Shown here piece after piece: positions 5,469-27,372 of a DNA stretch of 64,000 nucleotides. A model generated the notes under the pieces. The model had not been told where the DNA came from. It did no database searches and was given only the letters and a program-made list of their open reading frames with translations. The translations under genes were made by a program, and so were the position numbers. Within the stretch, counting starts at the first letter, position 1, and the number at the start of each line of letters is the position of its first letter. The stretch is from Picocystis sp. L7 (lineage: Eukaryota > Chlorophyta > Picocystophyceae > Picocystales > Picocystaceae). Where the stretch lies: the NCBI GenBank assembly GCA_020975725.1, contig QXJR01000012.1, positions 186,001-250,000 of the forward strand, written 5' to 3'.

Positions 5469-8400
5469 TCATCCAAGGCAACATTCAAACCACTGCCGCA
5501 AGAGGTCAGCCAAAGTTTGAGGAAGAGATGCAGTTTCAGTGAGTACAATGTAGTACGGAAAAGGGAAGCTATCCATGTACTTTTGAAACACTGGTCGCCC
5601 ATCCTCAAACGATACACTCTGCATATCCATGACAGAGTTGCTTGGACTATCGAGCACGATAAACGCGAGAAGCAAACCCTTATTTTCCATCATCTGTCTA
5701 ACTTTCCGCTGTAATGACTCTTTCTCGTGAAAGTGACCATCAGCAATAATCAGCACGAGCTGCTGAAGCTGTGCACTGTAGCCAGCATCTACCCTATCAC
5801 GTGCATTCTGCAGCAAATCATCCAAAAATGACAAAAGCTCACCAGCAGGTTTATCTGCAATGGTATTGTCCTGATCGAAGCAAAATCCATCCTCCAACAT
5901 TCTGATGCCACATTGTTGTGTGAAGGGTTGATCAAGAGGATGCTTTAATTCGACGCCCCTGCCTCCGCCCCAACTCACTATTCCAAGCTCCCCCACATCC
6001 AAGCGCGAAAGGGCAGTTGCAATTAGGGCCACAGATTCTAGAGCAAAGTGTGCACAGTGGTTCTGAGTCATAGACATGGAATCATCTATAGCCATGACTA
6101 CCTGGTAGTTTCGTTTATCTGGCTTTGTACGCCGCATCCAGATCTTATCTTTCTTATATTTGCTTGCTATGTAGGATATCACTTTCCTCATGTTTATTCT
6201 TTTACCTGTTTTGTATTCTCCACCCAGCTTACTGGCAACAGTTGGCTCCAGCAAGAGACGGAGTTGCTCCACAAGCTCCCCTGATATATGACTGGACAGG
6301 TGCTCATACCTCATCCAACGCTCAACTCCGGCATTTTGTCTCGGCTGATGAGTTTCTGGGATGGTTGGTGCTTCTGCTTCAGTCCGCTTGCCCTCTGTTT
6401 CAGCGTCTGTCCACTCAGTTCCCTCTACTCTATACCTCTCTTTTGCCAATGAGCTAACATGACTGTTTTTTCCATCCCCTACGGAATTGTGCATTTCGAC
6501 CTTCTTTCCGGCATCTTCTCTTCCATCAAAATCTTCACGCTCTGTCTCCATCTGCACATCGATTCGGCTTTCTTCCTCCCAACGTGATGGCAAGTGCTTC
6601 GGATTGACAGCATCCGGCTCATCTCCATCTTTTGCTGTGTCAACCACACGGTCTGTTGCACCTTCCTGCATTTCAACGTGCTGTTCTTCAGTAGCTGCTG
6701 CTAGAGCAGCTGATTGTACGCCTTCTCCAACCTCGCCCTCGTGCTGCTCGAATTCATACTCCATGCCTTCAGCACCCTCTCCATTTAAGGACTCTGGATC
6801 TCCGACTTCATCGTCATTCTCTCCATCTGCTGCTAAGCGCCTCACCCACTCCTTAAGGGCATCTGCTAGTGTTCTGCATGCATTGGTGCGCTCTTCCTGC
6901 GGTTTTTGTGCACGCGCATCGGCTTCTTCAGCTTCCTTGTTGGGCTTACCTCCAACTGTTGGACCGTGAGTGAGATCCGTGTCCTCTTCCAGGTGATAAT
7001 CAGGTTTCTCATCCTCCTGATCAAGCAACGACTCTTCCTGAACTTGATTGTCCTGCAACTTGGAATGCTGGTTTGGCTGAAATGAACCATCAGGCCTTGA
7101 ATTTTCTGCTTGGTTCTCAGGCATGGCAGATTGCGGCAACCCTGCAGTTGACGGCAGCTCGTCATCTCTATTCTGATGACAAGTTTGCACTTCCTCGGGT
7201 ACCTGTGAAGTTGCGATTAAGTTCTCATCCATCTCATTGATATTCTTGTCGCCATCACCTTCGTCCTCAATATCCTTCTCTCCACAGGGTTCTTCGCCAG
7301 CTTCTTGATCAGAAAAAGTCCCAGCATCATCTTGAAGAGTGTCTTTTCTCTCCTCCTCACTGTCTTCTTGAACTGCATCATTGGTCAGAGCCTCATCTGG
7401 ATTTCCTTTGTCAGGATCTTTCTCTTCACCCTCAGGGGAATCCTCTTCTCCATCTCCATCACCACCGTCTTGGTCGCCGTCGAGTGCCATATCATCTGGT
7501 AGCTCGAATTCTTCTTCTGCTTCAATATCAAAGTTGTTTGGAGGAGCATCGTCATGGTCCCTTGGAGTTTCCTGAGAAAATGACTGTTCCTCCTCACCGT
7601 GGTCACTTTCCTCCATTGCATTCTCATGGTTCTTTGATTTATCCTGATTGTCCTCCTCGACACCTTCCTCATCCATAGCTCCCCTCAAGTCCAGATCTCC
7701 TTTGGGTTCTTCCACAGTACCCCCATCCCCTTCCTGAGGATTCGACCCATCAGGCTTGTCATCATCCCCCCACATCCTTTCATCTACATCTTCACCAGAA
7801 TCAAAGTCACCCAGCTGCTTGTCCAGCTGCTCCTCTTCCTCTTGGTCATCCTCTTCATCCTCCTCACCTCCGCTGACATCGCCCAGTTCACCAGCAAAGT
7901 CTTGCTCCATCTCAATGCCCTTCGCTTCATCTTTCTCATTGTTGTCAGCATCTTCTTCCTCTACCTTGTCCTCAATATCATTATTGCCGAGGACCTGGTC
8001 TTCATTTTCAATTTCGTCACTGACATCTTTGGCACCTTTGCCCTCCCCAACTCCTGTCCCTGCTATCTCCTTGGTTTTACCAGAATCAATGGCCTTTGTG
8101 GACTCTTCCAGTGGACCACAGTAGCCATTCTTAAGCACTTCAACAAAACAGGATAAAGCAATGTATCCCAACTTTGCCGTTGCTTTGTGCAGGTGCAAAT
8201 GCTCCGAGAAAAGTGTTTCATACGAGACCAGTAGAGTTCTGAACAAGGGAAGACTCTGTTGCAATTGTAACCGTATTGAGCGTTTGTTCGGTTCAAAATC
8301 ATGGTTTCCATATGCATAAACCACCAAAGACTTCAGCCGCTGCATGATCGAAGTTAAGTGATGACTTTCAAGCAGACTTTGCAGCTGCTCCACGGTACCT

Positions 8401-11400
8401 GGGAGTGAGCTTTTCTTGGCTTCGTCATCTTCCTTCCCATGGTGAGAAAGATATCTCACTGCTTTTTGCGACCAGAGCAGCGCGTCTCTGATACAGTTGT
8501 TCAGACTTTGAAGCTGCTCATCTTGGCTTGAATCAAGATCAGAGTGCTTCTCCATATCTGCGACAATTTTGTGCAGCAAACTTCGAGGGTGGAGTTGTAA
8601 CCATATCTCTTCCACTCTTGCAATGAGAAGATCTATGCCAGGCACATACACGTCTTTCTGCTTTGATGCCTCTACCACCTGCTTCAGCCGCATAAACTCC
8701 TTGCTCAACCTATGTGTAACTCCATGGACTTTGCCGAGATTATGGGAGAATACTGGCAGAGCACACTCTTGCAACAAACACTGCAGTTGCACTTGTTCCC
8801 ATTCATCGACAAATACACGGAGGGCAGCCTTGACTTGTTGCAATGCGAAATCTACCGCTTCAAAGGCTGATTTCCTCTCCGTAACATCTTCTAAACCAAT
8901 CAATTCATGCAGTAGGCAAGCAAAATCAGCAACGGAAGTATACGCAGCATACATTTCCTGAATAGGATCTTTGCATGTTTCCTCTACCTCTTGACAATGT
9001 TGTTCGCTCCTTTCTGTACCTGTCATCATTGGCAGTTGTGAAATGCTGCCCACACACTGTCGAAGGAGCAAGAGCTGTTTGCCATGTTGCGAAACCCCCC
9101 TCCTTTGCACCCCCTGAAGATGGACAAGCTGGTCTGCAAATGAGAGACCACTTTCGATTTCCTCTGGGGAGAGGTCCGTGCTAGCATTATCTTCCAAATC
9201 AAACACTTGCTGTACAAATGCTTGAGACTTATAAAAGTATTCGTCCAATTTGCACGGAGATACATTGCTGCTCGCATCACTAAAAGGACATTCAGCAATT
9301 GGGGGAACTAGTGTCCACGACAAAGAGTTCTTGCATTTATAATTCATCTGACGCCTCGACAGGCCAAGGTCACGAAAGGCATGCAAAAAATCTGTCAATG
9401 CTTTCTTTTTGCGCTGCTTTGTTGCCTTCTGATCTTTCTGTAGGAGATAAACCTGGTTGGCCAGGGTTGAGCTTAAAATCTCGAGGGATTCTGCGATACT
9501 GGATGGACCTTCTTGCGCAACAAAAGAATCCCGAAAGTGTCGAACCATAGCCTTTGTCAGTGCAGGGACTCGGGGCAAATAGTCGAACAACATCTCATCT
9601 TGGGCATCAACAGGGCAAGGAGTTTCCAACAGAAGAGTCTCTGTAAGTCTGGCCGCACCCACTTCCCAGTGTTTACTTCCCTCTGGTGCAGCCTTTGCAT
9701 TCCCCATTTCATCTGTTGTAGGTTCGGCTACTTCCATGGGGAGAGAACATTCACAAGAAATATTCACAATCCCCGTTGCTCCCTTGTCTTCCTCAACAAT
9801 GCATGGAAAAGGAAGAGACAGCACATCCTGAAACTTGCGACATAGCCTGTGTATTGTACGCGAAGATTTGTCTGCTGATTCTTTCAAGGCATAGTATCCC
9901 CGGTCCTCCCACCGGGTAAGCTTGATAAATTCCAGCATTTCTTTCTCAATCTTCTCCTTATGGCCACATATGTACTCCTCCACTTTACTTTCGTACTGAC
10001 TGAAGAAGTTTTGAATGTTTGAAAGTGAAGTATGAAGTAGCTCCCGGCGGTGTCTGCTGCCAGTTCCGACAACTTCGTGTCCATGAGTACGCTGAATCTG
10101 ATCTTGGAAGGCCGTTAAATATGCTATCCTTGCTTTGAATTGTCCAACCGTAGATGCCATGACGAACTCCTGTAGGCTGCTAGTCACGTCAATAGGTTCT
10201 ACATCACCATCCAAGACCGAGTTAATAACCCCAAGAAGATGGAGCCAGGACTCATGAGATAGAATGATCTGCCTCCTTGCTGTGTATTCCAAAGCTTGCC
10301 TCCAAGAATGCAGCTCGAGTTTCCGCCAACGCCTAGCTAGTGCAGCCAATTGAACTATCTCATCCCGCAAAGAAACATAACTAGCAGCTGATTCTTCCCA
10401 AATCTGTGTCCTCGATATAAGAAGTTCCAGTCCAGTAGAGAATGACTTGAGAGGAAGTGACAACTTGATACCCAGTAGTCTCGTACAGAAAAGGTCAAGT
10501 TCCAAGAGCACTGCGTTCTCAGGCCATTCTTTCAGCAATGAGTGGATCTTTCCTCGCAGACGAGAAACAGGGGTTTTCACAAGAGAGGCCTCTGCAGGAT
10601 TACTATCGTGATGAAAATCAGGCAAGCTCTCTGTACTATTCATCAGCGATGCGTCTTCGAATGGCAAAACCTGGTACCCTTTCAGATCCCGGCAGAGCTT
10701 CATCAAGTGACCAGCTAAACAAGGTGCAAAGTTGTCGAGGTTTCCCTCATTTGAGGTTTCCAAGATGTCCATGGCTACCTTGTAATTAGCCTCGAACGAT
10801 GGCACACGGAGACAGTTGTCATGTAGAGTGTCAGATCTTTCTTGACTGAATATTAGGCTGTGAAACCGAATCACCTCTGACAGACATCCGCCCTCGAAGA
10901 AAGCCTTCAGTGATTCCTTTTCGCTCTTTCTGTGCAAAAGGTCTTCCGTCGATGATTTGCTACCAGTCACTCCAGGATCATCGAGGTCAGGAACTTCCTT
11001 GGCCAGATCTTCAAATAACTCATGATGATCTGGAAACCTTTTCCTGAGTTCCTCCTCCTCATTCCCTGATTCATTCAATGGATTGATAGACAGCCCCTTG
11101 TATTTGAATATCACACTTGCTTCTTGTTCTTCAGCCTCCAGATGCTCTTTCAATTCTCGCCAAAGAGAATGTATTTCTTTTAAAAGTGACTCGACAAGTT
11201 GAATATGCATATTGTGCAAACCAACGCGGCATCGTCCAGACAGTGCAACCCACCTCAATGAAGCAACCAAAGCCGCCATTTTCCTTCCAAGGTTGGTCTG
11301 GCGAGCTACAGAACCCCCAGGAGCCCTGTTCTCACCCCCACAGATTGCAAATTCCTCAATAGGCAATGAACACAGAGTACGTACGTGAGTATAGTCATAA

Positions 11401-14400
11401 CCTAGCGACGGAGGGAAGGACATCAATGAGCGTGCAGCCCTGATTGCAGACTTTTTCGTCTGAGATTGCTCGCTTCGTTCAATAGACGAAACAATATAAG
11501 ACAGCCCGCTTTTTAGTTCATAAACAGCAAGTTGCACAGGCTGAAGAATATCTGCATATGGAAAGTATTGAGACAAGGATTCATCCAAAAAACTCAGGCT
11601 TGTCTCTTGAAAGGCCTTCACTTCATTGAGTTTTTGTTGCCGCTCGTGCGTCTCCAATTCTGCTGTTGACACCAGATCCTTTGCCAGGTAGCTGATCCTG
11701 CCAATATCTGCAATACCTTCAACAAATCGATCGACCTCCATCTTTAGCTGGGTGTAGATTGACGGTTCTGGCCTTGCCACAAGCTTCCTCTCCATTCTTT
11801 TGCATTCAGCCGCTGTTTCCTCCTTTGCTTCTCTGACATGGGGAAGGCACACATCCAAACAAGTCTTATATGGGCAAGATTCATACATCACCCTTACTCG
11901 AAGCTCGTTTTCTAATTCTTCCTTGCTTTCATGCAGAACATCATAGGTGTATGTTGCCTTGTAGGAGGGGTCTACCACTGACAGAGGTCGCACTAGATGT
12001 AGTCTCAAGAGTCCTAATAAAGTCCAGGAGTATCCTATCCGCGCTGCAGTCAGATCACTGCCACGTTCAGGAAAAAGGTTGCGCATTGCTGGAACAAGCA
12101 GTTTACTGCTGAGCTCCTGGAAAGCAGCATTGCTTGAGGTCAACAGTATGGTCTCAAGCCTGGTAATAGTTGTACCTACACACGTTTCACCTCCACAACT
12201 TGTCTCTGTGTAGTGCAGAAGGCTCCTCAGAGCTACTTTCAGTTCTTGCAAGCACGAGCCCTCATACGTGCTTAAGAACTCAAGAGCTATTTGTATCATG
12301 AGTTGAACAATGATGCTCCTCTCTGAAGCCAGTTTTGCCAGCGTTGATCTATTCATCCATCCATCTGTACAGCACCTGAAAACGTGTTTCAACTGCATTT
12401 TCCGCGTTGCTAGATTGCCAGCTGTGGTATCCTGGAAGAATAGGAGAGTAAATGTATGTCCATCAATGCTCAGCTGGACAGGCCGGTCACATACGATCTC
12501 ACTTTGAGCAAGGGCCCCTTCCTCCAGCAGATTATGAGCACTTTCAAAGCCATGCAGCCCATGCCATCTTGCCCGGTGGTATGTCCACAGCATTCGCTGT
12601 ACTTGCTCTTTGAAGTACCCCCTCTGGGAAAGTGTTTCGGCAACCGACGGCTCTTTCTCTGCCATTCCCCATAGAATGAGCAGAGCTGGTGCATAGTCAT
12701 ATGGAGAGCGTGCAGAACCAGCTAGGCTTGTGTGCACAAACATTTCTAGTAATCCAATGCACTCCTTCCATTCAGTTGGGATTGACAGTGCCGACTGAAG
12801 CAAACATTTGAGAACTTTTTCGATGGCTTCGTGTTCTGCACTTAAGCTCCGTGTTTCCTCAATTCTACTCAGTAAGAATTGAAATTCCATCCAGGAGGGG
12901 TGATCAGCTTCGTGGAGTGGCAACGTTTGCTTGTAAATCCTTTTCGCATTTTGTAGAATCGTAGCAACTGGAGCGCACCCCTCCACATCATCCCTCCCTT
13001 CCTCTTTCTTTACCTCTAGCGTCTCTTTCAAACTTTCTTGAAGGAAAGCAACTATCTTTCGAAAATCTATCGATGAATCTGGTTGATACATATGCATCTC
13101 TAGGAGAGCTGCACCTTCACAGGCCTCTTTCTTAAGACTGTAACTTGCCCGAAAAGGAAACGTCCTGCTCTCTAACAGTCCACCCGAGGCGTGCAAAGAT
13201 GCTCTGTGCGGACTTCCTGCCATAAACTTTTCACACATCCAGAATAATTGTTCTTGGTATTTCAGCATTTGTGTAGAGCTCGGCAGTCTAGGCTTTCCAC
13301 CATCCCTCCACAAGATAGGCTTAGATGTCATGTGACCAAGACCCAGAGCAAATCGTAGACCTTTGCCAACATACTCGATCCTATCACACAGCTTTGCATT
13401 GGACGCAACTAAAAGGCTGTTGATTGCACTTTGAGCTTTCATGCATTTTTGGAAGCACAAAGCAAGCTTCTGAATGTCTGGGGAAGAACTACTACCAGAA
13501 TCAACAAGAGCATTCCTCCACAGGAGAAGCCTCTCTATGACTTCTCTAGAACTTTCAAAATTATCACGCATTGCATGTCCAATTTGCTGATCCAGCAGCA
13601 AAATAAACGGGTAGATCCACTCAACGCATGCATGAGACTTGCTCCCATGCAAGGTATTCGTATTGGTAATCTGAAGCCAGCATGATCGTTCCAGTAAAGT
13701 AGGTTCAGTAGGTAAAAAACCTTTTCGTAAGCCATCTTCCATTTCTCGGAGAATGGCATTCCGCCAAAGAAAGATGAGAAGGAAGCGTTTCTGCAATGCG
13801 CCATAGACCAGTTTCTCGCCAAACGCAGTCTTTGCAACGTCAACTAGCCTCCCAGAGTTGGTGCCACTTCCAAAAATTGGGCATGAACTATCACGTGCGA
13901 AGCTCATCAAGTAGCGAAGTCTTGTGGCCTGATCATCCAACTGAGCACGCTCTACATAAAGAAGCCCAGCAAACTGTTGCATTAATTCAACAGTTCGGAA
14001 CGATGCATCTCCCATCCGTGCCAGGTCTGGATGTGATCGAACATCAAAACCCATTGCCTTCTTGATGCTCGTGGTCGGGAGTTTCACCAGTCTATCTGCA
14101 GCCAGGCAGAAAAGAATCTTCGTAGAGATGAATTCAGGCTGGACAGCCTCTGGAAGATGGATGTGCATCGAACTGAATTCTGTGCAGACAGCTGTGTAAA
14201 GTGCAGTGTCCTGCTCGACTATAGCCATGAGTGGGTTTTGCGCAAAATTCCCAAGAGACACCAGGAAAGGCCAATCGGAGCAATTAAAGAGTGAAGATTC
14301 CACTTGAGATATCAACTTGCTGACACAGTCCCGCTCAATAGCTTCAATTTTTTCTGGTAATACGGCATAGTGAGGTATGCGACGCAAATATGTGCACGAC

Positions 14401-17400
14401 CATGCTGCTGAGAAGGAATTTCTCAAATTTGAACCTCGATATAGTAGGGTGAGGAACAGAGTCAAAAATTGCTCCATATCAGTAAGTGAAAGCTCAGCCA
14501 CGTGCACCTCATGCAGAAGCTCACATACACTTGTATACGCTGTAGATAACGCACGCTTCACACAACGCCCTGGGATTTGGGAAAATGACATCATTGCTTC
14601 AACCCTTGAAGTCCTTGCAGTGCCTAATGGGGCTGATAAATAAACCTCTACACCGCGATTTCGCATGGCACGCGAAACCTCACCATATCTAGGGTCTATT
14701 GTCAAAAAAAGACGGAAATCAGGATGTGGCCTGATGACTCGGAGCTTTCCATCGATTATGCCAGCTTCATTGATCAACAGTTTACCTTCACTTTCAAGGA
14801 CTGGATTTAGACGATCGAGAACTGCTGGACTGCACAAGTTTGCCCCTTCAAGAACCACCCAGTGCCCTTCTTCCATTGCACGAGTAACCACTCCATCAAC
14901 CCATTCAAATGCTCCCGCAGCATGAGCAAACGGGCAATTTTCTGCTTCAGCGCGAAGGGATTCAATTTGCCTTGCTACCTTGAGAAGATTTTGGTTCTTG
15001 CTACCATGGCTTGATATGCAAGCTTGGACCCCGTCAACGATGCACATCAATGATTTCAGCCTACCCTGCACGTCAAGTTTATTGCTCCTGCAACCTTCCA
15101 GCATGTACTGCTCCCAAGCAATGGATGTTTGCAGAAGCTTAGACAACGTAGATTGAGCATTTTCAACAGTGATACTTAATGAAACCTTGCAGATTGTTTC
15201 CAGCCAGTACTGATGGACTGCTTGCTCCGCATCAGAAACATGCCGTTCAAAATCTCTTTGCTCAAAACCACCCAAAATATCGTTGGCATCTGTACCGCTT
15301 GTCAGATTGCACTCATGCAGAATGTTGTTGCTCAGTAGCGATAAATTTCTCACAAATGTCGTCTTCCCTGACCCTTGAGGGCCCACCACAATGCAGAGCC
15401 AATTTGATGCAAGGCAGTGAGCAGCTGTTTCATATGCTTCCTTATCTCCAGGCAACAGAACGGCTGTACTGCGTTTCCTTTGGCAATCTACACATGTGCC
15501 CTCACGAATTGGGAGACGAGCTGAACCAATGCACAGGTCACCCATTTCCACATGGAAAGGTATCTCCTCTTTATTCTTGACCATACCATTGAAAATCGAC
15601 GCAAAGATCTGCTTGATCTCTTCCTTGTCTTGCTGCGTCCGCATTCTCTGCATGTAGAGCGGTGACATTACAGTGTAGATTTCATCGCAAGTAAGCAATG
15701 CAGGTTCTCTTTGGCGATTATCGCAGTATTCATTCAAAAGTTCACACCAGCGTAAAACATCCCTTAGATTGAATTCCCAGGGAGACCCGGTGCTGCCAAA
15801 TGCTTTCTTCACACTGATAGCTTTGTGAAGATGTGAATTGAATTTCACCATATTTTCAACGATGGCCCGAGGCATGCACGAAAACACAGTGGAGCAAATA
15901 GTAGTCAGATCACTCTCTTGGAGTGGATAACACCATACCTTTGTAAACCTGTTGAGGAATGATCTTGGAAGCCCTTTTCTTCCACCTCCCTCGGTGATTG
16001 GGTTCTGGGCTCCAAAGACACGGAAGCCTTCTTTTGGGCGAAACGAAGTAGATAATTCCGGAATATAAACCTCTTCTCGATGGTCAAGAAGCGCATTGAG
16101 ACCCTCTAGCACAGATTGACTGGCAAGATTAAGCTCATCCAACAGCACCCAGTGTCCATTCTTCAGTGCATGAAGGAGTGGCCCATCACTCCAAACAAAT
16201 TCCCCAGCTTGGTTACCCTCAGCAGGCAAATCTGCACCTAACAAGTCCATCACATCTGTCTGCTCTGAAAGATTGATCCGAACAAAGCCATTACCAGAAG
16301 CACGAGCAAGAGCAGCAATTAGAGACGTCTTTCCCACCCCTGGACTTCCCTCTAGAAGAATCGGCTTACTTACTTGGAGCGCTCTAGCTACTTTCAAGGC
16401 ATTCTTGGCCACTGTCGGTGCGGCCAAATCAAAGCGTGTTGGGTACTCTATTTTTTCATCGCCAAGTGGCAAGTTGAAAGGCCCAATCTTCACTCCCTCT
16501 GTTACATCAAACACCACTGGGGGCGAGGCACTTTGGAAGCAGCAGGCCTCCAGCAATTCATCCTTCTTGTCATCAGGCAAATTTTTGCCCACAAGAGCAA
16601 TTGCCTCCTCACGGTTCCGTTCAGTAGATGACAGGTGACCAATCCCAATTCCATCGATGAATGCAAGGTGTGCACCATGCACAAATGCGGACCAGTGGTC
16701 CAAAGCAGGGAATGTTGCATTTATGAAGGCTGACCAGGACAAAAGATCACGGACACTCATTGATGCCGCAATCACTGATCTTTCTGGGCCAGTAGTGAAG
16801 TCCATCCAGAAATCGAGCATAGCATCAGCTATGTTGGATCGTTCTGGTTCATCAGACACCAGCTGCTCATGAACAATTGACCAAAGCTCATCTTTTGAGC
16901 ACAAAGGCGGCACCCAAATTTCAGTGAATCTGTTCCGTAACGCTGGAGACAGTTCACGTTTTCCAAAATCTCCACCAGGATTCATCGTGGCAAAAATGAC
17001 AAAGTCGTTCTTCCCTACAACTTCGCATGCACTGCCGCCTTTCTCTGCAATCATGAGCTTTTTGTCGGGTTCAAGCACACTGTTGAGCCGTTCCAAAACT
17101 GCATCTTCGGCCAAGGAGAGTTCATCAATGAGCATAAAATCTCCGTTCTGCATTGCCTTGACCAGAGGTCCATCTTCCCAGACAAAGGGTGCATACCCTT
17201 TCCCTAAAATTTCTGAAATTTCAAGTAGCAGATGACGTGATCCGTGCACTTGTTCGACCAGTCCGTCAGCTTGTGCCCTCTCCAACGCCTTATCTAATTC
17301 TTGCAATAACTTTTTCGTGTCATCACCAGCCTGAAAGTCTCGGAAATATTCCCCTAAATCTGCATCGGATTGCATTTCCAGCAGGAGTTCCTCTAACTTC

Positions 17401-20400
17401 TTTCTTGCGGACTCTTGTGTCCGTACAGGCCTATACCCTCCTACAAAGTCTGATGCTTCAGTATGCTGGTGGCAGTTTACAGTGTGAAGCTTCTTCTTCA
17501 GTGCGGCTGCCACAAGCTGGCATACTGTTGTTTTGCCACAACCAGTCTCACCGACAAGAAGAACGTGTTCTCCATTAGATACACAGCGGGCCACGAGGCA
17601 TAGAAGACGCTGCAAACTGGTCGTCCATACGATCCGCGAGGGCATGGATGCAAAAGATGAGGAAGAGTCCAACTTTTGAATGATATTTGCTGCCCCTCTT
17701 GTGTACATGTCATTTGTGTCAACTTTGACTCGCAGGACCTTTTCGATTGCATGCTTCACATAGTCTCTTTCTGAAACAAGGCGAAGACGTTCGGCAAGCA
17801 ATGCCACACCATCTTCAGCGAGCTCGCTATACCCATTTGAATGCCGTTCTGCCCATTTGAACAAGATCCTAGGGGTGACAAGTCCATGCTTACCCGCAAA
17901 GACAAGAGAAGCCCTCCTGTGGCGCTGCAAGTCTTTCTGGACCTCGGTCATTTTTCTTGCATAAGTCTTTGGTATCAAGCATCTCTGTTCCAGAATGATG
18001 ACGAGTTCATCGTCAGGAATTTCATCAACATGAATCTCAAGGAAGCGGCTACGGAATGCTTGGGATAGTGGTTTTCTCCCACCATATATCCCTGGCGGAT
18101 TCTGTGTGGCAAAAAGCATAAAGTGAGGGTGAGGTTTAATTGTTTCCTGCGTGTCTGGTATGAAGAGCTCTCGGTTGTCATCCAAAAGCCTATTGAGAGC
18201 TTCCAAGACCTCTGTCGGGGCAAGATTGAGTTCGTCCAAAACAATCCAGTACCCTTTCCTCATGGCTTGGACCAGTAGTCCTTCCTGGAATTGCAAACCA
18301 CCCATGGTAGTCGTAGTGTAAGTCCCTATGTACTCGGAAAGATCTGTGTGCTCATGGTTGTTGATTCTTAGCAGCTTGTGGCCTGTTGCTCCCGCAAGAT
18401 AGGCCACAAGACTTGTCTTGCCACTTGACGTCGGACCTTGAAGGAGAATAGGATACTTGCAGAGCAACACGGCACGGGCTAAATTCTTGAGATGAGTGTT
18501 GATTGTGGGAGTCAAAATGAACGAGGCCAGATGAGGCTCATCTGCACAATAATCTCCTTTCTGAACCCAAAAAGAATCAAACTGGACAAATCCATTCCCC
18601 GGGCTTGCCGGTGCCCTGTTCAAGCCAACCACGCTTTTACCACACATGAGGATTTCCTGAAGAAACTTTTCCATTGTCCTCACGGATTCACTCTTCAGAA
18701 GGGTAAGAAAAGTCATTGAAAAACCATCAAACAGGGCCCTACCAAACCCATACGTGGGTGAAGCTGCTCGAGTGTATTCCAGAGCCCGATACAAGGCTCT
18801 TAGCGAGTACTGTGGCTTCCCATCACCACTGTCAAGTAAAGTTACTCCTGCCTCTTGTTTGCACTTAAAATAGAAATTCACAACGGGTGTCACAGGAGGT
18901 TCTGGGATGGTACCAGAGAGCAGCCCTGATACCAACATGTGCATGTCTTCAAACGATTTGGGTTCGGGTGCCGGGATTTCAGTGAACCTTGACCGCAATT
19001 GAGGTGGCAAGCTTTTTTTTCCAACATCTGTGCCGGGATTCATGCATGCAAACAAACGAAAAGTCGGGCTTCGTTGAATGCTACTAAGATCACCTCTTTC
19101 GGTAAGTACAAGGCTACCAGTTGGGCTCTCCAAAACACCTGCAATGCGTTCAAGGGTCTCAGCTGGAGCAAGATTTATCTCATCAAGCAGAAGCCAGCAC
19201 CCCTCGCGCAGAGCTTTCACAAGAATCCCTTCTACAAAGGCAAACGTCGTGCCAGAGGAGTATTGGGACAGCTTGTGTTCTGCATCCTTTGACAAGTCGT
19301 AGAACGCTTTCCAATCTTCAAGACTAGAAGAGGGATTTCCTTTTCGCCTTTTTGCAGAAGGTTCAGCAGAAGGATGATCGAGGTCTTTCGAAAGTTCAGA
19401 TAATGCCTTGCCACCAGCAGCAATGAAAGCCTTGAGGAGTGCAGCCCACCTCTTCTTACTGGCATACTTTTGTACACGTTGCAAGAAAGGCATGTTCTGT
19501 ACTGGTGAAAAGCTGTTTCGGAAAAGTACCTGAAACTGTTTCAGGAGAGGCCTTACCGTTTCTTCGATGCCCAAAGGTCTGAAACCTCCTAGAAAATCGC
19601 TAGAATCTGTTTGCTGGCTCATGTTTATCACCACTAGTTTCTCACCACAAACTGAAGCAAGATGCTGCACAAGTGCTGTTTTTCCCGTGCCAGTCTCTCC
19701 AACAAGAAGAACCGGCTCATTCAGTTGCACTGCTACGCTTACTCTTTCCATAAGGCGAAGGGCATGTCCAGTGTGAATGTATCTCCCTGAATATGTGATT
19801 CCATCCTCTGTGCTGCTCCGAGTGAGGCGTGCACGGCCTACCTGCACATGATCTTTTCCAACCTCGAGTTTTGGTTTCCAAGAGTCTGCCAATTGTGCTA
19901 TGAATTCCCGTGGCAGGGCAAAGGAGTTTGCTAATCCTTCTAAACATGACACATACACACTTTCTCGGCTAATGGCACCTATTAGAACATCAATGCCTTC
20001 CATCGTGATTTTTTCACGCACGCTTGAAGGGACCGTTAGACCAGCTCTGACTAGGGAAAGGTGCTGGCTATGAAACTCTAAAACCCGGCTGCACCAGCAA
20101 GAGAGCTCTCTCATGGACACTCCACGGAATCCAGTTCCCATAGCCGTGGAGAAAAGCACTGCTTGGTCTTTCATAGTGTCAATCCAATGCCTAGCTTGAG
20201 AGTCATCGCATATTACCTCAGTTGGTTTGCCCACTGCTGCCATATTTAGCTGAGCTAATGCACATAGCATTCGAGGCACAACTTCCACCAGCTCAGGGTA
20301 CAAGCTCCTCAAAACTACCTCTACCTCATTTACAGGTAAAGGTTTAACTTCTACTGCAAAAAAATTCGAGATAAGGTAGTCTCGTGTAGCAGGGTTCCTC

Positions 20401-21907
20401 GCTGCAGACCCAGGGCCATTGCTCATGGTTGCAAAAAGCTGGAAACCATGCGCAGCTTCAATGACATCGCCTCTGCTGGGTATATTGAGCACCCTCTCCT
20501 GTAGCAGCGTTTGCAAGGCAGAGATAAGCTCAAAGCTTGCATAGTCAACATCTTCTAACACCAACCACAATCCCTTCTTCACCGCTTGGGTGAGTGGACC
20601 ATCCTGCCAACAAAATTCTCCAGGGTTGGTGCCACAGACATAAGAGCCAAGCAGAGACTTGCTATCTAGTTTATCATCTAGATGCAACGTAACAATGCTT
20701 TCATTTGCGGTGGACCTTGCTAAATAGTTTATAAGCATGGATTTTCCTGCACCCGGAGGTCCTTCCAAAAGAAGGGGCCGCCCTTCGGCTAGCGCAAAGG
20801 CACATGCATGTAGATTTTGTTTGATTGATTCAGTAAGGACATACTGTTTGGGGTTCCCAACATTCCTGATGCTTTGGCTGGAGAGTTCAACACCGCAGAT
20901 GTTAGCTATGCTAGCCGGCGCGGGGCAGGTCGTTTCTGCAGAGTCAGATTCTGATGGGGATGCATCATAGCTGGGTGATAGGTACATACATGCCCTTTCC
21001 AACTGAATCCTGCACAAGTATTCCTTCCAATGAAGGCGACATTGAAACATATCTTCTTGTGACATGAAGCATCCCTCCAGTGTTCGTTGTGCACTAGCAA
21101 CCAGGCCGTATTTGATAGAAAGTGCTTGGATGGCATTCCAACAAATCTCACCATTCCTGTCTAGCAGCGTCCAGAGAGGAGATGCCCCCCAGAAGGTGCA
21201 AAGTGCATGCGAGTGTGTAATGATAATATGGAAGGATTTCACGATTTCTGAGTCCTCCACTCCTCCCTGGAATTGCGCGCGTGCAAGAGGATTGTCAGCA
21301 ACGAGTCCCATCGATGTGTAAAATTGAGATGAACTTTCCCATCGCTTGCGCTTCGTACCTCCAGTTGGACCCCAGGTGACTCTTGTGCGAATCTCGCGAG
21401 CGGCGAGGGTGCGTTTCGGAAGTATTCGACGAACGTCCTGCAGTGTACACAGCATGGGATGTCAGTCGTCAATTCGGCGAAAACTGACATTCCTAGACGA
21501 TTTCTTTCATCGACTCACTCTTCGGTATGTGGAGCAAGCGGCAGGACGGCGCTGCAGAGCAGGACCATTCTCTCTTTCCAAGGCTTTCCTGCCGAGCGCC
21601 GTCGCTCGACGATTCTCGTCACCATGCGCAGAATTGCCGGCCGAAAACAAGTGCAAACTTTCTCGGTGAGTTCGTGCGTTTGAAGTAGATCTTCCACCAC
21701 CTCCCACGTCTCCATGAGCTTCGTTTTCGCGCGCATACTTCCCGTCAGCTCGCCTGGTCCGTGTGCTCGCACGTCTCCTTCCTGCTGCGCCTCCTGGTCG
21801 CTGGCACGCACCGTCGCTTCGCCTCGCATCACCCTGGACACGTCTGTACGTTCCATCACGCTCGGTTCGCGCCTCGCAAGCCATTCCAGTCCGCGTATCG
21901 CGTCCAT
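5469..21907 (-). CDS. MDN1: Midasin, giant AAA+ ATPase of 60S ribosome assembly
   Basis: Midasin (Rea1) is a dynein-like AAA+ machine that pulls assembly factors off pre-60S particles in the nucleolus and nucleoplasm. Six Walker A motifs are visible in order: GPPGAGKS (near 20750), GETGTGKT (19690), GPTSSGKT (18430), GETGCGKT (17545), GSPGVGKT (16340) and GPQGSGKT (15375). They are followed by a long linker, an Asp/Glu-rich region (about 6450-8100) and a C-terminal MIDAS/VWA domain with DDSMSM near 6080. My model has three exons: 21907-21519, 21437-21359 and 21266-5469. Introns 21518-21438 (GTGAGT...CTGCAG) and 21358-21267 (GTACGA...TTCCAG) preserve phase. They join LAPHTEE to TFVEYFRNAPSPLARFA, a typical midasin N-terminal segment in another frame. 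Total about 5421 aa, a normal midasin size; the last exon alone is 15.8 kb. The start at 21907 (MDAIRGLEWL) is the least certain part. Confidence 0.93.
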
Positions 21908-22144
21908 CGCGTGCGATTCCTCGAGCGCAGCACGCGCAGCACGCCGCCAACGCCGCCGAATGAGAAAAAACTCCCTTGGGAATCGGAGGGGGGCGGAGGA
22001 GAGAAGAAACTCCCTGAGGTTGGTTGGTGTGGTTGGCGAAGGTGGGAGGATTGGTGCAGTTGGCTGAGTTTCTGACGATATATTTCGGTATCTTAGTAAA
22101 TGTAAGGAGCTTAAAAAACCCTTCATTTTTCGTAAAGTAGCCGA

Positions 22145-22759
22145 ATGTATGTGCCCTTCGCAAAGATCAAAAAGCACTATGGAGTCTCCTCGGGGACCTT
22201 CCAAAGGTGGGCCAATGAAGGGAAAATCGACAGTACTCGAACCCCAAGAAAACATCGATTGTTCAAACTCCCAGACGTCACCTCGTCAGAAAAAACGGAA
22301 AAGGACTTTGGAGATGCAGAAGGAGACGTCGTCGTCTACATCCGAGTGTCTTCGGCCAAACAAAGGGACGATTTCGAAAGGAAGCGCACCTAAATGCTCG
22401 CTCCGCGACCGGGAAGCAGAGTCGTCAAAGAAATCGCGAGCAGCATCAATCGGAAACATCAAGGAATGCTCTTCCTTTTGGACGGCGCAGTCGACCGAAC
22501 CATGGAAGAAGTCGTGGTTGCCACTTGGGACATGTTGTCGAGACTTTGTATCGATACCTTGGAATGGATGTTGCGTCGACATGTTTGCAAGGTCACCGTC
22601 TTGCAATCCGCCGACCAATTGCCTGAAGTAGAGTACTCCGGCGATTTTCTGTCCATCGTCCAAGTGTTCATCTATCGAAGAAAGGAAAAAATAAGATACG
22701 GTAGTCAAACTGTGATATGTGAAGTTGAACCCGATAAAACAATAGAAACTGGCATTTAG
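22145..22759 (+). pseudogene. tnpA: IS607 serine recombinase (TnpA), one internal stop
   Basis: The reading frame encodes a MerR-like helix-turn-helix (FAKIKKHYGVSSGTFQRWANEG), a linker with RTPRKHR, and the serine-recombinase core VVVYIRVSSAKQRDDFERK, where the first Ser of VSS is the expected nucleophile. The same frame then continues after a TAA codon at 22391-22393 with SRVVKEIASSINRKHQGM and EEVVVATWDMLSRLCIDTLEW. This aligns without gap to the conserved GSGIN and VVVAHRDRL regions of the family. Full length would be near 200 aa, as in IS607. The single in-frame stop and substitutions in the GSGIN motif suggest a non-functional but fairly recent copy. Other genes here use TAA as a stop, so recoding is unlikely. 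Confidence 0.8.
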
Positions 22760-22760
22760 A

Positions 22761-23835
22761 AAGTTTGAGGCGGCTGCTCAGTACACGTACAATGCGTCTG
22801 TCGCCGCCGTCACCAGGTGTGGTTAAACTAATCAAGACGTCTCTTCGGAACAAATTCGTGACGTTTAAAGACACCCCTTGGATGGTCGACAAAGAGTGGT
22901 TGTCAGGAACGCCGAAAGCCATCCGTCAACAAGCCGTCTTCGAAGTCGTCAAAAACTTCAAGGTGGCATTCACCGACAACGCACACGACAATATAGATAA
23001 ATTCAAGATGTCGTACAAGAAAAAAAAGACACAATGCACAAAGACCGTGGAGTGTGGGAATCGGAAAGGCCATGAAAATCGATACAGATGCCAACCACGA
23101 TATTTTTCTAGAGACTCTAGGAAAAATGAGGTACTCTGGTAAACTTCCGTTCGACGAAAAACCATAAGTCGAATGTGGGATCCATAGAAACACCATAGCA
23201 TACTGTTTTTTACGAGTGCTCAATGCAGTGAGCGTTGAAAAAAGTGACGACCTAACGAAAGAATCATCACGATGGGTCCCAGAGTCCGCAAGTTTGTGAC
23301 CGGATACTTGCCTACTCAAGACCAAAGATTTGATGCGGGTAGAGAAACTTCCAAAAGAATCTCTGCGATTCCCAGAAACATCGACTTGTTGAATTCCGAG
23401 TTGACGTCTCCTTGTATCGATTGCACACGGAGACGTCGACTAAGAAAGAAGAGGATGGGGTTGTACGCCGACTACAAGAACGTCCACGATGGCTTCCACT
23501 GGAAGCTCGCCAACGTGCTGAGTGTACGATACGACAGAATCTTATTACCACACCTGAAAAACGCAAAGCTTTCTTGGGGCTTGAAAGCCAAAGTCTCTAG
23601 GACTATGCTGTCGCAGTCTCACGGTCTCTTTTTACAACGACTCACTGAAAAATGCACAGAGAGAGGGTCACCTTGGAATCGCCTGCGGAGCGCCACACGT
23701 CGAAAACATGCGGCTGCTGCGGATGTTCGTCGACGTCGGGAGTTCCGAAACGGTCGTATGTCGTTGTGGATACGCGACCGACAGGGATTCAAACGCCGCG
23801 CGGAACATCTACATCCGCACGGAAACGTTTACTGA
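22761..23835 (+). pseudogene. tnpB: IS607-type TnpB (RNA-guided nuclease family), degraded
   Basis: Pieces of a TnpB protein are spread over more than one frame. They include KFEAAAQYTYNASVA (22761 onward), then TPKAIRQQAVFEVVKNFKVAF and FKMSYKKKK (22900-23030), which are typical OrfB/TnpB segments. A RuvC-I-like stretch MGPRVRKFVTGYLP (23272) follows, then RRRLRKKRMGL, ILLPHLKNAKLSWGLKAKV and SRTMLSQSHGLFLQRL. The zinc-finger and RuvC-III part (TSKTCGCCG, then CRCGYATDRDSNAARNI) is in different frames from the centre. The RuvC-I Asp expected in a DPGVR-type motif reads Gly here, and the Glu expected near PEF reads His (PHL). With frame changes and these substitutions, nuclease activity is not expected. 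Confidence 0.78.
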
Positions 23836-24154
23836 GAGTTAATTCCGGATATTTTGAGTGTCAGAATACAGGCTTACAGCCCATTTGGTCTGGTGGAAGA
23901 TGCAGGTATGCTAGATTTAACGGGAAGACAGGGGTGACTCCCAGTAGAAGGCAGGATGGAGGAGAACCAAGATACAGGCACAAGCAGGGAAGAACTATGA
24001 TTCCGGAAATGCCATTTGATGCAAGTGCAGGGAAGAGCTTTCCGGAACACTGGATATTTCATTTATTGCGACCCCAGCATCGAAGCCCCCAAAGACATCC
24101 ATGGATCTCATGCAGGACTCCGACGGTCCGTCAAACCCAACCAGGAAGAAAAAG

Positions 24155-26002
24155 CTACAGGTAACCTGCGTCTTTTGCTGCAGCCACGGCCATGAGGAGT
24201 CCAAAGGCTGTAAACATGGCTGCCTTCTTCAGCTTCCTGTACTTGTCGTCCTGCTCCACCTTTGCAGGCTTGGGCTTCACCAGGAGTACCAAAAGGGAAG
24301 TGAAGGCAAACGACACCACCGTGGAGGATAAGGTGCACACGTTGTATGGCATGCTGAAATCAGGAATGGTCAACGAAATCATCAGGCCATCCAAGTAAAT
24401 GTGGTGTGTGGGGAACTTTTCCAACAGCTGAAGCAATGGACGATCCGTGACGTCGTCCGGTATCCCGTGCAGAGGGAATGCTTCGATGGATTTCCATGTG
24501 CTATCCAGCTTTCCTACTTCTGTTATGTTGTTAGGAAAAATTTCTGTGACGGAGGCCACTGCTGCGGGAATATCCTCCCCACGACTAGCATCGGTCGGAT
24601 ACTCCGTTCTCCTCAAGAACATTTTTTGAAATTCCAAGGTCAGAAGCGCATGCTTTGCCGTCTTGGGCAGGTCGTAGCAGAGCTCCACGAGGGAAGGCTG
24701 CACCCGGTCCCGAGAAGGGCTGTAATGGAGGGCTAACACACCTTCACCTTGCGATTGGCCATCGATTTCCAGTTTTAGTGTGTGAATCCATACGCGCAAG
24801 AACCAGGGCAGATACTGAAACAGACACACCTGCAGCTTGTTATCAAGTGCACCCAGGATTGGAACAGTGGTTCTCCTTCGAAACTCGTAAGCAATGCCTC
24901 CGGAATCGCCGGTCGAATGGGTAATGTAGCTGTCTGCAATAAACAACGGCCACTCGGGTTCCCAGGCTTCAACATCTTCCTTCCACTCTAGCTCTAACCT
25001 GAGAGGCTTCTGTTTGGTATACAACAGCAGCGGATAGTCAAGAAGAGTAGACCGGCTGATAGTGGCATTCTTGCCGGATGGATCTTTGGCTTCACAGTCC
25101 AGCAGTGAAGGTGCCGCAGGGCTCAAGGAGAAGCCCGCAGTTTCTTCCAGGCTTAGGCCTCCCTTCATATCTGCACCTCCCGGGAGAGATTTGCTAGCTT
25201 GCACGTAAATGTGCGAGCTTTGCGAGGAGGGACAAGGTCCCTGAACAGTCCCCAGCTGTTCTTGTAATGCCCAATTCCTAGAGATGCGATCTTTACTGTA
25301 CTTCCCAGTTGGGATGACCAGGAGGATCGTGTTTGTGAGCACGAGCAACTCATTGGTCACCTGCAAGTGCGACCCCATGGAGTGATACAGGGAATCGTAA
25401 AGCTTGTGTCGATTCCTCAACAGCGATCCGATGCCTGCCACATCCCTGCAAGGTAGCAGCTTGAGCCACGGGGTGAGGTTCTCGGTGCAGGTTGCTTCTC
25501 GAGGCAGTACACCGTACCTGGTTGCGGTGCGTTCTCGGAAGGGTCCTCCAATTGGGAAGTATTTCGGTTGTATGTGTTTGCTACCATCTGCCAGGAACGA
25601 AAGCGAGGTGCAGAAGAGTCCACCCATGGCGTGCGTGAGGTTTCGCCACAGGGTCCGGTCGGTTTCTTCGTCCTTCGGCACGTAATTCATCACCAGCTCC
25701 GCACCCACAGGACTGGCCGGCTGTGGCGGTCTTCCCCATTTGCGATAGTTCCATCTCCCAGACGTGAGCCTCAGCTGGGCGTCCTCGACGTTGGCGTGCG
25801 CCTGTGCGAGGTGGGCGATGGCGTGTGGGAATCCTTGGCTGGGTTCTTCACCGCGTTCGGCGGCGAGCTGGAAGTGGAAGTGGGCCATGAGGTGTCCATT
25901 GGGAAGGGGACGTAGCAGAAGTTCTTCCGTGAACCTCTCTCGCACTCCGACCGCCGTTGCAATCCACAGGAAAAGCGGCAAGCCGCGCATCATCATCCTC
26001 AT
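24155..26002 (-). CDS. PIGT: GPI transamidase subunit PIG-T/Gpi16
   Basis: PIG-T is the ER-membrane subunit of GPI transamidase, which attaches preformed GPI anchors to proteins. The 615-aa product starts with a signal peptide (MRMMMRGLPLFLWIATAVGV) followed by ERFTEELLLRPLPNGHLMAHF, the conserved family N-terminus. Later landmarks are RLTSGRWNYRKWG, YPTDASRGEDIPAAV and, close to the end, IPDFSMPYNVCTLSSTVV, the PIG-T signature leading into the single C-terminal membrane helix. A Lys-rich cytosolic tail with a second hydrophobic patch ends the protein. The open frame extends upstream to 26464, but the signal peptide fixes the ATG at 26002. The coding region is intronless. The gene lies 257 bp downstream of the alpha/beta hydrolase on the same strand. 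Confidence 0.9.
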   Translation of the reverse strand: MRMMMRGLPLFLWIATAVGVRERFTEELLLRPLPNGHLMAHFHFQLAAERGEEPSQGFPHAIAHLAQAHANVEDAQLRLTSGRWNYRKWGRPPQPASPVGAELVMNYVPKDEETDRTLWRNLTHAMGGLFCTSLSFLADGSKHIQPKYFPIGGPFRERTATRYGVLPREATCTENLTPWLKLLPCRDVAGIGSLLRNRHKLYDSLYHSMGSHLQVTNELLVLTNTILLVIPTGKYSKDRISRNWALQEQLGTVQGPCPSSQSSHIYVQASKSLPGGADMKGGLSLEETAGFSLSPAAPSLLDCEAKDPSGKNATISRSTLLDYPLLLYTKQKPLRLELEWKEDVEAWEPEWPLFIADSYITHSTGDSGGIAYEFRRRTTVPILGALDNKLQVCLFQYLPWFLRVWIHTLKLEIDGQSQGEGVLALHYSPSRDRVQPSLVELCYDLPKTAKHALLTLEFQKMFLRRTEYPTDASRGEDIPAAVASVTEIFPNNITEVGKLDSTWKSIEAFPLHGIPDDVTDRPLLQLLEKFPTHHIYLDGLMISLTIPDFSMPYNVCTLSSTVVSFAFTSLLVLLVKPKPAKVEQDDKYRKLKKAAMFTAFGLLMAVAAAKDAGYL

Positions 26003-26259
26003 CCTTTCCTCCTTGGCTTCGTTCTGTCCATCCCAGGGTCCACTCCCTTTCGAACCCAGGAACGTTCCAACTGGGTCTCCCAATGGAAAGGCGAGATCTG
26101 TCCGGTTCCATCGGATTCGAACCCGTCGTCCCTGAGCACCGGAAGGAAGAAGGGGGGCATTCGATCGCTTCCAAAAGGGGGGCACAGATGGGACAGAAAA
26201 GGTCGACGCACGTCCACCTTGCTTGGGCTTTCCACGGGGAGGAAGGGTCGGAACTTGAT

Positions 26260-27372
26260 TCATGGAGAAGGAAGGAATGGAGAAGACGAGCGTGTGGGAA
26301 GCAGATGGCGATCCAGGAACGCAGCAGCTGCTTGGTGCATCTCCGACGTGGCCTCGTGGCCGACCCCAGATTGGATGAAGGCATCCAAGGCGTCGGCGGA
26401 ATTGAAGGTTGCATAGGCGTCCTTGGTCCGTTCCAAGGCCAATCGAAGGCCAGGAAGGGGACATCTAGGATCCAATTCCCCATTCAACACCAGTAAGGGC
26501 CGCGGTGCGATCAAAGGCAAGCTCTGTGGCGCATCGGCGTACGTCAACAGCCCCGGTGCGATGCGGTCCCACACCCGTTTCACCACTGAAGCATCGCAAT
26601 TGACCTTGCCCAAATCTTTCGTGGCCACGTCAAACACGCTGGGCGCATCTCCACGGCGCAGGCTCTCGGCTCTGGCCTGCCATCGATCGTGTTCCACCGC
26701 CCAAGCGAAGGACTGCACGCCAATCATGGGCGCTGCACAGCTCAAGCGTTCGTCTGCAGCTGCCCATAACCAGGCGTGCATGCCTCCCAGGCTCACGCCG
26801 GTCACGCCCACGCGTTCGGGATCTACATCTGCGCGCTGCTGCACGTGATCGAGCAAGCGCATGAGGTCGTAGACGGTGTCGAAGAGGAACGGCCTGGCGT
26901 CTGCCGTTCGCCAGGACCGCACCAGCGCGTCGTTGTAGGCGTCGGATGCACGCGAACCGTGATGTCGCGAGTCCACAGACACCGCCAGGTATCCGCGCGA
27001 TGCGTACTGTGCGGCTTGACGCGCCAACTGTCGACGGTCGCCGCCCGTCGCGTGGAGGAGCACCACGCAAGGACGCAAGCTCGTCGTTTCATCGCGTCCT
27101 CCATCTTCCACAGGTTTCATAAACACGGCTGGTGTCCATTCCTGGCCGTTTCCGTCGCTTTCGTCCGTAAAAAGCTCCACGTCTTCGACGTGGACGCGGA
27201 ACTCGTCCGCCAGCGCACGCCACTTCGCGGCCTGGCGAGGATCCGAATCTTGTCGCGACGGCCGCGTGGACACTGGTTGGAGCAGCTGCTTCTCTCTCCC
27301 GCGGCACAGCGTCGCACGGAGCGCCGCACGGAGTCCTTCTGCGTCGGCCATGGCCGTGGCACGTGCGACCAT
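26260..27372 (-). CDS. Alpha/beta hydrolase, dienelactone hydrolase-like
   Basis: A serine hydrolase of unknown substrate. The fold begins with VVLLHATGGDRRQLARQAAQY and the strand YLAVSVDSRHHGSRA. The nucleophile elbow is GVSLGG, the acid is probably Asp in LNGELDPRCP, and the base His is in SGVGHEATSEM. The HATGG oxyanion turn and YNDALVRSWR insertion resemble plant and bacterial acyl-peptidase or dienelactone-hydrolase-like proteins. The frame is open from 27570; starts at 27570 (436 aa), 27372 (370 aa) and 27351 are possible. The extra 66 residues of the longest form are hydrophobic and Ser/Pro-rich and could be a targeting peptide. I list 27372 as a compromise. No transmembrane segment is evident in the core. 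Confidence 0.8.
   Translation of the reverse strand: MVARATAMADAEGLRAALRATLCRGREKQLLQPVSTRPSRQDSDPRQAAKWRALADEFRVHVEDVELFTDESDGNGQEWTPAVFMKPVEDGGRDETTSLRPCVVLLHATGGDRRQLARQAAQYASRGYLAVSVDSRHHGSRASDAYNDALVRSWRTADARPFLFDTVYDLMRLLDHVQQRADVDPERVGVTGVSLGGMHAWLWAAADERLSCAAPMIGVQSFAWAVEHDRWQARAESLRRGDAPSVFDVATKDLGKVNCDASVVKRVWDRIAPGLLTYADAPQSLPLIAPRPLLVLNGELDPRCPLPGLRLALERTKDAYATFNSADALDAFIQSGVGHEATSEMHQAAAAFLDRHLLPTRSSSPFLPSP

Follow-up and report, generated by a model that had tools for sequence, protein, structure and literature searches.

Eukaryotic elements of the IS607 family carrying a Fanzor2 gene are already known: Bao and Jurka described such elements from eukaryotes and giant viruses in 2013, among them ISvMimi_1, ACa-1 and CRv-1 (PMC3627910), and IS607-type recombinase genes were reported from the yeast Saccharomyces kluyveri in 2009 (PMC2715888). 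TnpA alone suffices for IS607 transposition in Escherichia coli, with exchange at GG and without target duplication (PMC6188088). The TnpB or Fanzor protein takes the right-end RNA as guide; a DPG motif together with a glutamate six residues before CxxC (hereafter, the alternative glutamate) constitutes a fingerprint that Fanzors have in common with the prokaryotic proteins closest to them, and IS607 elements have been proposed as the vehicles that brought Fanzors into eukaryotes (PMC10711439). Fanzors of green algae are mentioned in PMC12633428 and PMC10711439, and PMC6004678 contains a single passing mention of IS607; these sources are represented here by parts of their texts. Within the portions of the literature sampled, direct evidence for an IS607 element moving within a nucleus was not found, and a search by title and abstract opening in the open-licence literature yielded no paper on LTR-bearing IS607 derivatives in the nucleus.

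In this work, we analyzed a stretch of 64,000 nucleotides from Picocystis sp. L7 (the window), taken from contig C10 (735,973 bases; positions 186001-250000) of a 30-contig assembly with a total of 20,525,659 bases. Between the host genes MDN1 and PIG-T, the window contains an IS607-family element of ~1.87 kb that resides in the nuclear genome, with limits near 22058-22060 and 23922-23923 according to its alignment with three other copies. The features of the locus, in window positions, are:

5469..21455, minus strand: MDN1 (midasin), flanking host gene; a single open frame of 5328 aa with AAA-lid domains PF17865 and PF17867
22058..22144, plus strand: left terminus of the element, with AG (22058-22059) and conservation from 22060, from the four-copy alignment, in which the flanks differ
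22145..22759, plus strand: pseudogene of tnpA, the IS607 serine transposase gene, interrupted in frame by TAA (22391-22393); NF033518 match, 27/39 invariant residues kept
22701..23842, plus strand: tnpB (putative Fanzor2) pseudogene, in pieces in three frames; tblastn with relatives and frame-by-frame reading
23843..23923, plus strand: right terminus of the element, with GG (23922-23923), from the four-copy alignment
24155..26464, minus strand: PIG-T (Gpi16), flanking host gene; PF04113, E 8e-106

The original prediction had placed a tnpA-tnpB pair between MDN1 and PIG-T, and the domain matches identify both flanking genes; its limits of 22080-23870 locate the element correctly but are slightly short, the four-copy alignment giving ~22058-23923. 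Regarding the host, the antenna-protein family PF00504 has 18 matches in the genome, one of these proteins retrieved chlorophyll a-b binding proteins when compared with solved structures (best 60 of 206 matches), and a search of the genome for phycobilisome linkers, as a test for a red alga, found none; the antenna proteins pointed to an alga with what would be a green plastid, of primary or possibly of secondary origin.

The two portions of tnpA, upstream (22145-22390, codons 1-82) and downstream (22394-22756) of the TAA, match the NCBIfam profile NF033518 (IS607 transposase) with E 3.3e-12 and 5e-13, respectively, and the same profile has a single match over the whole genome, of 94.5 bits, which extends over profile positions 2-177 (of 187 in all) and crosses one TAA. 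These matches fall below the curated cut-off (110 bits) because the gene is broken, and no other tnpA was found in the genome with the profile. The MerR-like helix-turn-helix is weakly recognized (PF13411, E 0.027; PF12728, E 0.0018; both below cut-off), and the serine motif (YIRVSSAKQRDD; RVSS) is retained. Thus, the recombinase gene with MerR-like and serine motifs that had been proposed was recovered, and its similarity to IS607 recombinases extends over both pieces and the whole frame. From the 39 residues invariant across 26 relatives, 27 are kept and 12 altered; one of the latter is the first arginine of DRLSR, conserved in the relatives, which is now M. These relatives (40-69% identity; P0013 and P0018 lack one stretch) were obtained by a search of 5.8 billion proteins from genomes and metagenomes, which gave 112 candidates and 27 matches, the remaining one being P0027. 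This protein equals the window at 49/50 residues in the tnpA frame and at 109/110 in another frame; it is a further record of this relic, differing in frame, lies on a 16.7-kb JGI contig, and may come from another strain or from the same species.

As had been predicted, tnpB follows tnpA on the same strand, here in pieces detected by tblastn with relatives: the similarity spans 22701-23842, changes frame five times and is interrupted by at least three stops that lie within matched pieces. By themselves, the pieces gave no match in Pfam. Out of 4151 candidates, a single-frame search recovered 20 TnpB relatives, with top identities of 54-55%, and the profile built from them had as its best solved match the TnpB-like protein L79 (E 1.8e-47), which we take to be a mimivirus protein. 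The DPG and alternative-glutamate patterns, scored anywhere in the ORF, were both present in 20/20 of these relatives, in 9 of 14 viral-contig ORFs (the alternative glutamate alone in 2, neither in 3) and in 12 of 23 cyanobacterial ORFs (DPG alone in 8, neither in 3). In the window copy, DPG reads GPR, with the consequent loss of the RuvC-I aspartate, and the alternative glutamate and the RD motif are kept. The glutamate of the LET motif was also considered as the RuvC-II residue, and was dropped on the published definition (PMC10711439). Taken together, the fingerprint of all 20 relatives and the tree position indicate that the tnpB product was probably a Fanzor2, the branch being placed among the database, viral-contig and cyanobacterial rows sampled. 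Membership in the IS607 family was upheld, and the qualifier "prokaryote-type" was not, since the affinity of the second gene is to Fanzor2 and the copy is a pseudogene of some age. Outside the four copies of the element, the protein search with the TnpB of a relative found no other Fanzor2 place in the genome (at least 11 matches, all within these copies). The RNA fold of the right end is weak over the four copies (of its 43 pairs, 2 show changes at both positions), and the right end had no match in Rfam.

The window element is an inactive full-length relic in which both genes are broken, a condition that the earlier reading of the locus did not mention. No intact IS607 gene was found in the assembly by profile and protein searches, so the family is probably dead in this genome.

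Regarding the number of further copies, a point raised with the original prediction, the DNA search of the genome yielded three:

C16:32837-33703: short copy
C10:558145-559028: short copy
C12:266392-267305: short copy

By alignment, these copies are 867-914 bp long and have in common with the window element ~108-140 bp of the left end and 345-400 bp of the right end, with 83-88% identity. When 10 kb of the window and 7 kb of each short copy were compared, no similarity at E 0.01 was found beyond the element ends, save for extensions of at most ~16 bp. The left-end dinucleotide is AG in 4/4 copies, and the right-end one is GG in 3/4 and AG in 1/4; the 8 inverted-repeat pairs include none that links one end of the element to the other, and no target duplication was found in the flanks of the four copies. 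K80 distances between the window and the short copies were 0.18-0.21 for the right end and 0.14-0.19 for the left end, and those among the short copies were 0.24-0.28 and 0.14-0.17, respectively; the window copy has changed least, assuming that all copies radiated from a single source.

The central part of the short copies consists of a ~421-bp stretch that matches 15 further places, some of them partially. This stretch occurs twice on C8, 4.5 kb apart and 100% identical, and twice on C4 with 98% identity, and corresponds to the LTRs of a ~4.95-kb retroelement present on both contigs (L039:2495-7444 and L040:2201-7156, respectively); the 100% and ~98% identity of the LTR pairs points to insertions that would be recent. 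Self-comparison also revealed a tandem array with a period of ~54 bp adjoining the C4 retroelement (L040:1-2012; C4 ~1155.0-1157.0 kb). Among the short copies, those on C10 and C12 carry the whole LTR or almost all of it, and in that on C16 the LTR lacks ~45 bp at one end; it has the same orientation and nearly the same position in all three. Read from the alignments, the right junction is common to C10 and C12 (window position 23569), and the left junction is common to C10 and C16 (22165); the left junction of C12 lies at 22197, ~32 bp further in, and the IS607 sequence of C16 resumes at 23512. The shared junctions favor a single capture with later deletion or conversion, which suggests, short of proof, that the LTR was captured once, before the short copies spread.

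To place the element among its relatives, a TnpA tree of 52 rows (the window, 26 database proteins, 8 viral and 17 cyanobacterial) and a TnpB tree of 56 rows (the window, 20 database proteins, 12 viral and 23 cyanobacterial) were built. The viral rows were taken from L044 and 13 of 80 loci (L077-L089), and the cyanobacterial rows from 12 of the 291 genomes passing E 1e-40 plus G001; 8 TnpA pieces below 130 bits and 4 TnpB pieces below 90 bits were excluded. The window row, whose branch is long in both trees (0.68), falls inside a set with 16 database rows in the TnpA tree (support 100/98) and groups with 8 database rows in the TnpB tree (99/97). The closest relatives are database proteins, with up to 69% identity for TnpA and 55% for TnpB. 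In four cases, a TnpA and a TnpB relative have longest contigs of equal size (1896, 2505, 9316 and 19203), which suggests that tnpA and tnpB adjoin in those pairs. Viral contigs scanned with the broken window pieces alone gave no relative, whereas the profiles of relatives did match. One viral contig (L044:3986-5675; IMGVR_UViG_3300035670_009930) carries a tnpA that looks intact, overlapped by a TnpB/Fanzor2 ORF, and is distant from the window copy; in Dolichospermum planctonicum (L045:4037-4552; NZ_BJCF01000083.1), a TnpA relative with 40% identity starts late, seems to lack most of the helix-turn-helix part, and adjoins ordinary-looking bacterial genes.

Four points are directly established, namely the family identity, the loss of both genes, the common ends in unrelated flanks, and the LTR inside three short copies. 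With a probability of about 0.8, we consider that the locus is a full-length IS607/Fanzor2 relic, derived from a transposon once resident in the algal nucleus whose TnpA also moved LTR-bearing deleted derivatives. An intact copy would have carried tnpA and a Fanzor2, an RNA-guided nuclease, in the nuclear genome of the alga, and TnpA would have acted on both ends, with neither terminal inverted repeats nor a target duplication involved. Acting in trans, TnpA may also have moved internally deleted derivatives consisting of both ends, with a host LTR replacing the middle, one capture of this LTR presumably having preceded the spread. As in described relatives, the element may have been excised as a circle, and Fanzor2 with the right-end RNA may have cut the vacated sites. 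For the narrower proposal that a nuclear IS607 transposase mobilized in trans MITE-like derivatives, made of the two ends around a captured host LTR, we regard the odds as even, the AU test on the LTR tree described below having lowered them slightly. Deleted LTR-bearing copies with the same ends at unrelated sites are what such mobilization would leave. Against the main reading stand the LTR tree, the differing junctions of C12 and C16, and the end dinucleotides, which are unmatched (left AG, right mostly GG), in contrast to the matched GG expected for IS607.

Segmental duplication, gene conversion or another kind of recombination could instead have spread the short copies without TnpA, and the mixed junctions, whereby the C10 copy has one in common with each of the other short copies, agree with such a process; nevertheless, similarity ends at the same two points in the four copies and the flanks are unrelated over 7-10 kb, which makes this explanation quite unlikely. 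Whether the LTR dates nuclear movement depends on its having been captured only once. More than one capture, by which the LTR would provide no time stamp, is a possibility that we consider doubtful: in the LTR tree, of 16 rows, the three short-copy LTRs stand apart, being together in 0 of 200 bootstrap trees, and C12 departs from the other copies at the left junction, as C16 does at the right, but the LTRs agree in orientation, nearly so in place, and in two pairs of common junctions. The resolution of the LTR tree is moreover poor, 3 of its 12 inner branches being starred, and forcing the three together made the tree 5.1 log units worse, a grouping that was not rejected (AU p 0.216).

Being IS607 elements mainly prokaryotic, contaminating bacterial or viral DNA or a misassembly might also account for the locus. 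This is very unlikely and was set aside because the element lies on a 736-kb contig, with eukaryotic genes on both sides, and three more copies, all of them containing a host LTR, occur elsewhere in the assembly (C10, C12 and C16); in addition, the reading frames are decayed, and P0027 repeats the broken gene at 158/160 residues, so that the relic appears in a second record, unless that record belongs to the same assembly. A recent direct arrival from the sampled types of giant virus or cyanobacterium is improbable. Viral contigs do carry tnpA with a TnpB/Fanzor2 ORF (L044), and cyanobacteria are named as holding the nearest prokaryotic forms in the available text of PMC10711439, but viral and cyanobacterial rows fall outside the group of the window in both trees, and the best viral identities are 41% for TnpA and 34% for TnpB, both measured to the first sequences of the profiles. 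The question of source raised by the original prediction was hence only narrowed: the window copy groups with database proteins, apart from the sampled cyanobacterial and viral-contig elements, and no donor was singled out. Domestication of the copy in the service of the host is extremely improbable, and a domesticated gene was rejected, as tnpA and tnpB are both broken and the RuvC-I aspartate and a conserved TnpA arginine are lost.

Under the favored reading of nuclear residence and TnpA-driven spread, the host LTR carried by three copies with unrelated surroundings could provide a time stamp: if it was captured once, the short copies spread after the element was already nuclear, and, if this is true, transposition of a prokaryote type ran in eukaryotic chromatin long enough to produce its own non-autonomous family. 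The same genome contains an open Fanzor1 gene of 662 aa (L037:2964-4952; C8:292463-294448), whose best solved match is the Fanzor1 of Spizellomyces punctatus (E 2e-38). A broken copy with 88% identity and 5 stops lies on C2, and Fanzor1 has 73 genome matches in all, most with internal stops. With one open Fanzor1 amid many Fanzor1 relics, both Fanzor lineages are therefore comparable in one host.

With respect to known systems, the element resembles those of Bao and Jurka (PMC3627910) in its tnpA serine recombinase and Fanzor2 and in the lack of inverted repeats and target duplication, and differs in that both genes of the algal element are broken and short host-LTR derivatives occur in the same genome. 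Cyanobacterial pro-Fanzor IS607 elements (PMC10711439) have the same gene order, and the fingerprint is found in 12/23 of the cyanobacterial ORFs, but they form separate branches in the TnpA and TnpB trees. Chloropicon primus likewise harbors Fanzor2 within a green alga; there, however, it belongs to a transposon of the cut-and-paste type that has inverted repeats and target duplications (PMC10711439), whereas that of Picocystis belongs to an IS607 element. Finally, Saccharomyces kluyveri also has nuclear relatives of IS607 TnpA in several copies, for which, in the part of the paper available, transposition was held unlikely by the authors (PMC2715888), while the ends and flanks in the alga point to transposition.
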